Source: a virus. Taken from it: a stretch of 20,145 bases of DNA. Position 1 is the first letter of the stretch; every line of letters begins with the position of its first letter. The DNA lies in the IMG/VR virus record IMGVR_UViG_3300030106_004182, positions 723-20,867 of that record. One strand, written 5' to 3'. This document shows, one piece after another, positions 1-7,368 of this stretch. The translations under genes and the position numbers were made by a program. Below the pieces are notes generated by a model. That model was given only the letters and a program-made list of their open reading frames with translations, was not told the origin of the DNA and did no database searches.

Positions 1-9
1 TTTAGTCAT
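1..9 (-). CDS. Start of a gene that runs off the left edge
   Basis: On the minus strand an ATG (positions 9-7) reads M-T-K before the window ends. A strong ribosome binding site, AGGAG, lies 7 nt upstream of it in the order AGGAGTAAACAAATG. Nothing can be said about the product. Confidence 0.55.
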
Positions 10-65
10 TTGTTTACTCCTAAAGTAATTGGATTTTTAGGTCCGTTCCTTTAGTCGTTTGCGTC

Positions 66-263
66 TCATGTAAAATTACACTCACCTTCCACTTTACTTC
101 TCAGATACCTAACAAGAAATTTTCTTTGATTTATTGGAAGATTTTCATCTTTCATTATTTCTTGAGACCTTTCATGCCATCTGGAACAAGACATGTGCCA
201 GTTGTATTCTTTAGATAAATCAGGTCTATGAGATGCAAAGATGAAGGGTAGAATAAGTTCCAT
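66..263 (-). CDS. Small cyanophage protein downstream of glutamine-type riboswitch (65 aa)
   Basis: A 65-aa protein of unknown function. The basic, Trp/Arg-rich C-terminal half (around SRWHERSQEIMKDENLP, then a FLVRYLRSK stretch) resembles a type of short soluble protein common in T4-like cyanophages. No catalytic motif or membrane segment is visible. It has its own consensus promoter (325-353) and sits directly behind a leader matching the downstream-peptide/glutamine riboswitch class, which is known to precede short ORFs. The first ATG (263) has no Shine-Dalgarno sequence and lies just after the second copy of a 10-nt repeat, so its initiation is probably controlled by leader folding. An internal ATG at 197 is an alternative start giving 43 aa. 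Confidence 0.7.
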   Translation of the reverse strand: MELILPFIFASHRPDLSKEYNWHMSCSRWHERSQEIMKDENLPINQRKFLVRYLRSKVEGECNFT

Positions 264-264
264 G

Positions 265-318
265 AGATGAACGATCCGTTCCGCGACTTACTTGCGTCCA
301 GTTTCCTGGATGAACGAT
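265..318 (-). ncRNA. Glutamine riboswitch, downstream-peptide/glnA-like motif
   Basis: Read on the minus strand, the leader begins AUCGUUCAUC (318-309) and then forms the hairpin UCCAG-GAAA-CUGGA (310-297). The core GGACGCAAGUAAG follows at 299-287, then GGAACG (282-277), which pairs with CGUUC (316-312) to close the element. CGUUCAUC, GGACGCAAGUA and GGAACG are the hallmark segments of the glutamine-binding glnA/downstream-peptide RNAs known from marine cyanobacteria and their phages. A second AUCGUUCAUC (275-266) follows and can compete for GGAACG. The motif starts at the predicted 5' end of the transcript. The match was made from memory of the consensus, not by a covariance search. Confidence 0.8.
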
Positions 319-324
319 GGGAAT

Positions 325-353
325 ATTATAACTCCTATGAACTATATAGTCAA
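325..353 (-). promoter_or_regulatory. Sigma70-type promoter for riboswitch and 65-aa gene
   Basis: On the minus strand, TTGACT (353-348), a 17-nt spacer and TATAAT (330-325). The predicted start near 318 places the riboswitch at the 5' end of the transcript. Confidence 0.8.
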
Positions 354-377: not shown

Positions 378-614
378 TTATTTAATGATGCCTCTATCAT
401 TCATATAATGAAGAGTTTCTTTTAATGTTCCTCTATGGTCTAGACCATAGGAGATTTGTGGGTATTCAGCATCTTGACCAAACTCAGCATTAAATTGACT
501 TTGTGTGAAGTCTTCATCCAATAAAAAAACTTTTACATCTTGGTCAATACTGTGGAGAAGACTCTCTGCTCTCTCACATTCTTGACTGCCATTAGAGTAT
601 ACAAGGGCTTGCAT
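378..614 (-). CDS. Glutaredoxin-like protein lacking the first active-site Cys
   Basis: A 78-aa thioredoxin-fold protein that resembles the true glutaredoxin at 3211-3447. YSNGSQEC aligns with YSKDGCPYC, the segment FTQSQFNAEFGQ aligns with YTRQEFYDKFGR, and YPQI aligns with the cis-Pro FPRV. The CPYC motif has become SQEC (Ser10, Cys13), so the nucleophilic N-terminal Cys is gone and Cys13 is the only Cys. Ordinary dithiol chemistry is therefore unlikely; a binding or monothiol role is possible. ATG 614 was chosen because AGAAG lies 9 nt upstream. ATG 623, three codons earlier, overlaps the upstream stop and has no properly spaced binding site. Confidence 0.7.
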   Translation of the reverse strand: MQALVYSNGSQECERAESLLHSIDQDVKVFLLDEDFTQSQFNAEFGQDAEYPQISYGLDHRGTLKETLHYMNDRGIIK

Positions 615-7236: not shown

Positions 7237-7368
7237 TAGTGTAGGGACACTAGGTAAAATATTCCTCCCCCACCCTCAGGGAAAGGTATGAAAGACGTTT
7301 TTAGACACCCTAGAGGTCTTGGTTTAAGAGGTGTTAAGAATAGTTAAGAAATGTTTTGGTTTCTTAAC
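7237..7368 (-). promoter_or_regulatory. Structured psbA leader with two hairpins
   Basis: Two perfect hairpins lie in the roughly 160-nt psbA leader. One has a 9-bp stem, GTTAAGAAA / TTTCTTAAC (7368-7343), and starts within about 10 nt of the predicted 5' end, a position suited to mRNA stabilisation. The other has a 6-bp stem, TAGTGT / ACACTA (7252-7237), just upstream of the start codon, and contains the alternative GTG. The 7215-7497 gap holds this leader plus the divergent promoters and no further gene. Confidence 0.55.

Follow-up and report, generated by a model that had tools for sequence, protein, structure and literature searches.

Interlocked glutamine-type aptamers with a gene as hairpin loop: a probable double riboswitch in a T4-like cyanophage

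Does the leader of a small cyanophage operon hold an ordinary glutamine riboswitch with a decoy strand over its start codon, or a different arrangement of the same parts? The window, i.e. the whole 20,145-nt stretch that was analysed, belongs to a 20.9-kb viral record carrying psbA, psbD and a PhotoRC-II RNA, and its source is a T4-like cyanophage by gene content. The PhotoRC-II RNA (window 7251-7346, 72.4 bits) is located immediately upstream of psbA. On the minus strand, the initial annotation had named CGUUC (316-312), a hairpin (310-297), GGACGCAAGUAAG and GGAACG (282-277), followed by a repeat, AUCGUUCAUC, at 275-266 and by GGAAC (261-257) directly after the AUG (263-261), and all of these were found in place. 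The strong promoter that it had placed at 353-325, TTGACT-17-TATAAT, was recovered as well, and the predicted transcription start lies about 7 nt past it, on the aptamer's first base. Its identification of a glutamine-aptamer leader also holds, as the Rfam Glutamine model (RF01739) matched 318-273 of the minus strand with 31.3 bits (E 7.7e-5), far above chance and below the cut-off of 35. Of the two covariance models proposed as a check, the second, Glutamine-II (RF01704), likewise gave a match that stays below its cut-off (21.8 bits versus 33), and the P2 helix of that match includes non-standard pairs.

That reading covered one half of the element and overlooked 70-44, where the distal half, CATGAGACGCAAACGACTAAAGGAACG, lies about 200 nt downstream, beyond a 65-aa ORF. 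The full element, 316-44 on the minus strand, reads P1A[P2A P3[P1B P2B]] and is probably an interlocked double glutamine riboswitch, in which we infer ligand binding at both junctions. The features are as follows, in window coordinates.

325-353, minus strand: sigma-70-type promoter TTGACT-17-TATAAT (TTGACT 353-348, 17-nt spacer, TATAAT 330-325)
312-316, minus strand: CGUUC, 5′ strand of P1A, pairing with 44-48 by the Rfam Glutamine model on locus L005 and the MFE fold of 44-316
297-310, minus strand: P2A hairpin UCCAGGAAACUGGA, GAAA-capped, all four pairs with compensatory variation in long-P3 relatives
289-296, minus strand: junction CGCAAGUA of aptamer A, with the G22 equivalent and the 5′ half of the E-loop by comparison with 5DDP
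284-288, minus strand: AGUCG, 5′ strand of P3, pairing with CGACU 53-57 by covariation
277-282, minus strand: GGAACG, 5′ strand of P1B (GAACG 277-281), by GCAACG:CGUUG compensatory variants
269-273, minus strand: CGUUC, 3′ strand of P1B, with triloop GAU 274-276, by compensatory variants and MFE
261-267, minus strand: UCUCAUG, 5′ strand of P2B, containing the ORF start codon (inverted repeat I7)
66-263, minus strand: 65-aa ORF in the P2B loop, phrog_6471 (unknown function; phrogs E 8.6e-17), a relative of syn9 gp196
64-70, minus strand: CAUGAGA, 3′ strand of P2B, overlapping the UGA stop of the 65-aa ORF
59-63, minus strand: junction CGCAA of aptamer B, with the G22 equivalent by comparison with 5DDP
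53-57, minus strand: CGACU, 3′ strand of P3, by covariation with 284-288
44-49, minus strand: distal GGAACG, 3′ strand of P1A (GAACG 44-48), with the AAA half of the E-loop before it
20-25, minus strand: CUUUAG, alternative partner of CUAAAG 49-54, overlapping the Shine-Dalgarno AGGAG 17-21
1-9, minus strand: DUF4278-like downstream gene (AUG 9-7; phrog_545), running beyond the window end, with a 10-N gap in the contig

Two glutamine-I three-way junctions thus have P3 in common. Aptamer A (P1A, P2A and P3) is a normal glutamine-I junction closed by the distal GGAACG, and it is the distal strand together with the shared P3 that gives it all of P1, P2 and P3. Aptamer B sits inside P3 of aptamer A as a circular permutation of it: the ends of its P1 are linked by a loop of 3-6 nt, which in the window makes the hairpin GGAACG-gau-CGUUC (P1B), P2B serves as its P2, and P3 of aptamer A is used from the opposite side. 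In the window P2A is a plain hairpin, while the loop of P2B consists of an entire 65-aa gene. The 35-bit gathering score of RF01739, missed by the window, was reached by the related loci L005 (43.6), L151 (36.8) and L132 (35.5), and in L005 (8338-8418) the model formed P1A and P3 and treated the 38 nt of the B domain as the loop of P3.

The glutamine-type match recurs at at least 120 viral loci, retrieved from viral contigs by scanning for the pattern CGTTCATC-hairpin-GGACGNAAGTA, and in 450 phage records. Many of these loci carry a compact form of about 81 nt, CGTTCATCC-hairpin-GGACGCAAGTA-AGTCGC-GGAACG-gat-CGTTCATCC-hairpin-GGACGCAAA-CGACT-GAAGGAACG, and about 60 a split form, in which an ATG interrupts after the second CGTTCATCC and the remainder follows 148-253 nt downstream. 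Among 161 distinct elements parsed, 83 had two plain hairpins and no ORF, 49 had an ORF in P2B, 28 had one in P2A and one, in S-IOM18, had ORFs in both; the same double occupancy of P2A and P2B was seen in syn9, P-HM1 and S-TIM5. The layout was present in all 12 cyanomyovirus isolates examined. The pattern of the B element, found at at least 120 loci in viral contigs, had 53 matches across 257 Gb of cellular genomes, almost all of them scattered and without the remaining architecture. The complete architecture was seen in three of the 53 (L282, L242 and L246), all on phage or phage-like contigs: one is a phage contig of 189 kb that is also present as a viral record (L156/L282), and the other two are MAG contigs on which PHROG hits indicated phage-type genes (L242 and L246). 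No host cyanobacterial copy was found in the 257 Gb with the exact pattern, which divergent copies could escape. At the site examined in podovirus P-GSP1 (L289, 505-862), no element was found near a gp196-like match; this match overlaps a gene annotated as a high-light inducible protein, upstream of psbA. Some variants of the arrangement were also observed. At L039 (6503-6830) three aptamer units stand in a row, namely one with a hairpin, one bearing an ORF and a closing one. One P2 arm, either P2A or P2B, is often exchanged for a long hairpin, ATTCGCTATTcgcAAATAGCGAA, whose sequence hardly differs between phages (L014, L021, L036, L123 and L195).

The strand assignment is decided by P1B. In loci chosen without any constraint on P1B, distinct loci comprised 80 with GGAACG:CGUUC, six with GCAACG:CGUUG and none with a mixed pair, and the 5′ CGUUC was unchanged. 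The crystallised glutamine-I RNA carries CGUUG/GCAACG in its construct sequence (PMC5393176), which marks the change at pair 5-55 as one that occurs naturally. Since the second copy reads CGUUG in each of the six GCAACG variants, it is the second CGUUC that pairs with the first GGAACG, just as the initial annotation had proposed for one of its folds; and with that strand taken, the first CGUUC depends on the distal GGAACG, some 200 nt downstream. The proposed switch between the first and the second CGUUC does not survive, for the first copy stays constant in six of six GCAACG:CGUUG loci. These variants exclude both the local P1 of the earlier reading and a simple tandem. A single glutamine-I riboswitch, whose 5′ CGUUC would pair with the nearby GGAACG and whose repeat would be a switching decoy over the AUG, is scarcely credible, since the glnA model does give the proximal half alone its 31.3 bits with local P1 pairing, but the first CGUUC is kept in the variants, the proximal GGAACG has neither the GAA half of the E-loop nor its own P3 hairpin, and the distal half recurs in dozens of loci. 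Very improbable, too, are two ordinary tandem aptamers, a pseudo-cooperative doublet with one aptamer per CGUUC...GGAACG unit and no interlocking. True simple tandems do occur in the same viral scan (L084 and L103), and 157 glutamine doublets have been reported (PMC9481103); but a tandem predicts CGUUC1:GGAACG1 and CGUUC2:GGAACG2, both of which the GCAACG/CGUUG variants would break, and a separate P3 is absent from both units, whose P3 strands are instead complementary to each other and covary. Given the P1B variants and the shared P3, the two aptamers do not close independently, each with its own strands.

P3 itself occurs in short forms (AGUCG/CGACU, AGUCA/UGACU and GGUCG/CGACU) and in long forms (AGCCGACN/N'GCCGACU and GGACGACG/CGCCGCCC). 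With loops trimmed for equal length, 92.2% of positions were paired in the long-P3 set (53 sequences) versus 83.0% after shuffling, with 127 versus 30.4 cells of double changes, and 29-53% (at most 52.5%) in slid versions, which are the better control because relatedness inflates the shuffles; the short-P3 set (31 sequences) gave 99.7% versus 93.1% shuffled. One pair of the long form was UA in 28, AU in 15 and GC in 10 sequences. RNAalifold on a plain MAFFT alignment did not recover P3, because the length polymorphism of P3 had misaligned its strands. For P1A, covariation was sought without fixing this helix, and it was invariant in 64 of 64 parsed compact elements, so that this helix contributes no covariation. 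Most long forms have A.C or C.A at two P3 positions: of 53 sequences, 51 have no standard pair at pair 3 and 45 have none at pair 6, and the mismatches, at fixed symmetric places, are nearly always C.A or A.C. They may represent protonated A+.C wobbles or a motif with dyad symmetry; the window has the short form.

The P2 strands are complementary even when parted by a gene. P2A strands parted by an ORF (29 pairs) had a duplex energy of -8.9 versus -5.65 (z -7.2), P2B strands (45 pairs) of -9.4 versus -7.7 (z -5.9), and for each none of 5000 permutations was as good. The AUG was paired in all 74 of the ORF-split duplexes. In the window, the start codon (263-261) of the 65-aa ORF is base-paired within the P2B duplex 267-261/70-64 (UCUCAUG/CAUGAGA, -9.2 kcal/mol) and the stop lies at the P2B 3′ strand. 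The start codon is therefore in structure as the initial annotation had it, with P2B as its partner instead of the GGAAC at 261-257; that GGAAC is conserved in only 7 of 47 loci with an ORF in P2B and 3 of 28 with one in P2A. Furthermore, an unconstrained MFE fold of the 273-nt element of the window, with the ORF in place, gave -72.0 kcal/mol (z -3.58, 0 of 200 shuffles as good) and contained P1A, P2A, P3 (AGUC/GACU), P1B and P2B. At the level of sequence, the fold, the shared P3, the position of the start codon within P2 and the extension of the ORF's end into the aptamer are established; the structure is well supported, and the function is what we infer from it.

Glutamine-I crystal structures show the ligand held by C1, G2, G22, C58 and G59 (PMC6698751), and comparison with 5DDP located equivalents of all five in both A and B. 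Aptamer A also has both E-loop halves, AAGUA and (G/A)AA, and aptamer B is devoid of the glutamine-I E-loop (AGUA/GAA). Both junctions may thus bind L-glutamine, as all the contact bases are in A and B, and B is the uncertain one owing to its missing E-loop. A conserved fold that serves translational coupling, mRNA stability or protein binding, glutamine sensing having been lost in phages, appears rather improbable: the ORFs overlap the fold exactly and phage copies are known from sequence, but the binding-site bases are invariant while the helices drift, and the downstream family is the one found under glutamine riboswitches in hosts (PMC6316151). A more serious alternative, though still an unlikely one, accepts the interlocked fold and lets A alone bind glutamine, with B serving as a structural cap and carrier of the loop gene. 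It would account for the full E-loop in A and its absence from B; against it, B keeps all contact bases, the core shared by glutamine-I and -II, and the C5-G55/G5-C55 exchange that glutamine-I P1 shows in nature.

The loop ORFs encode 50-69 aa, start 3-7 nt past CGTTCA and extend into aptamer sequence. Stops of P2A ORFs are mostly the UAA of CGCAAGUAAG (19 of 29) and those of P2B ORFs the UAA or UGA of CGACURA (47 of 50), so that the ORF ends read GRK or DAND, with aptamer bases as codons. The 65-aa ORF of the window had tblastn matches in 56 phage records. In isolates, gp196 (phrog_6471) and gp197 (phrog_504) are followed by gp198 (phrog_545, DUF4278-like), commonly near nrdB and talC. The downstream 52-aa ORF contains YRGVKYE and YRGRTYTK and matched DUF4278 (PF14105) with an E of 1.4e-4, below the Pfam cut-off, which the P-HM1 homologue exceeds. 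A suggested link to photosynthesis genes could not be upheld, as the operon encodes small unknown proteins and the DUF4278 protein. IF17, a glutamine synthetase inactivating factor, has DUF4278 as its N-terminal domain, and in hosts glutamine riboswitches of both classes lie upstream of DUF4278 genes, where they work as ON switches (PMC6316151; PMC6698751).

Because both aptamers share P3, cooperative glutamine binding would be expected. The folded sensor would lock the AUG of the loop gene in P2B, repressing that gene when glutamine is bound, and a ribosome translating the loop gene would have to melt the sensor, so glutamine and translation would be mutually exclusive. By analogy with cyanobacterial glutamine riboswitches, glutamine would turn the DUF4278-like gene on and the loop gene down. 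This ON direction is drawn from the analogy and is unsupported by the energies, because aptamer closure in silico did not systematically free the Shine-Dalgarno: its mean unpaired probability went from 0.34 to 0.38 in the compact set, stayed at 0.38 (0.38 before closure) in the split set and fell from 0.48 to 0.29 in the window. When 1-43 was included in the MFE calculation, the distal half left the aptamer for a CUAAAG/CUUUAG hairpin over AGGAG, a stem that covaries weakly (permutation z -3.1). Tentatively, then, the element could be a two-site, cooperative, strand-swapped sensor with genes as loops, a reciprocal toggle between loop proteins of the gp196/gp197 type and DUF4278 proteins of the gp198 type that tunes host glutamine synthetase during infection.

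Like glutamine-I (glnA RNA, RF01739), the element has the three-way junction, the CGUUC/GGAACG P1, the P2 hairpin, CG(C/G)AAGUA, GAA before GGAACG and the contact bases C1, G2, G22, C58 and G59 (PMC6698751, PMC5393176). Unlike it, the phage P3 holds a second, circularly permuted aptamer in place of its own loop, the P2 loops can contain whole genes, and scores lie near or below the family cut-off. Glutamine-II (Downstream-peptide RNA, RF01704) has the same core and binding site, precedes short peptides or DUF4278 genes and is marine; the phage element is nested instead of a pseudoknot, and where glutamine-II was shown to bind in an artificial two-piece form (PMC6698751), the ORF-bearing forms are split naturally by a gene. 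Tandem riboswitches, glutamine-I doublets included, also place two same-ligand aptamers in one leader (PMC9481103), whereas the phage aptamers share a helix and neither closes without the strands of the other. As the tandem survey set overlapping hits aside as single riboswitches and required that no ORF intervene (PMC9481103), an interlocked layout would stay hidden from it. A glutamine riboswitch in T4-like cyanophages is already known by name (PMC9964418; PMC9602691). In the literature searched we could not find a shared-P3 permuted pair or genes in aptamer loops, an earlier mention of overlapping tandems being possible; the phage element is therefore a known riboswitch class in an apparently undescribed arrangement. 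In group I introns, ORFs can sit in peripheral loops, which likewise places a gene in the loop of a structured RNA, but neither splicing signals nor a catalytic core was seen in the phage element. If the interlocked reading is right, an aptamer is locked as a circular permutation into its twin, the hairpin loops of a sensor are genes, and ligand binding and translation compete directly for one RNA. It would also explain the GRK or DAND endings of gp196/gp197 and connect cyanophages with how the inactivating-factor family of glutamine synthetase is controlled. The element's presence in the well-studied isolates syn9, P-HM1, S-PM2 and S-TIM5 makes it directly testable.

A second phage class appeared in the same scan, consisting of single classic glutamine-I aptamers (L007, L019, L022, L037, L046 and L116); after them comes GGAAAC...GGAGUUUCCAAUG or a similar sequence, within which lies the Shine-Dalgarno of another small gene family. 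As for the promoters, a sigma-70-type promoter precedes the element in 108 of 153 relatives, its -10 box mostly ending 7-9 nt before CGTTC. Of 91 distinct element promoters (L001-L229; e.g. GGTCTATAATAGACC and TGTGTTAGTATTAACACA), 69% have an inverted repeat centred on the -10 box with arms of at least 6 bp, versus 3.6% in shuffles. Its arm sequences differ between phages and it is weak in the window (3 bp); it could be an operator or a DNA structure. Within the upstream ORF 378-623, window 433-450 is a perfect 18-nt palindrome, CTATGGTCTAGACCATAG.
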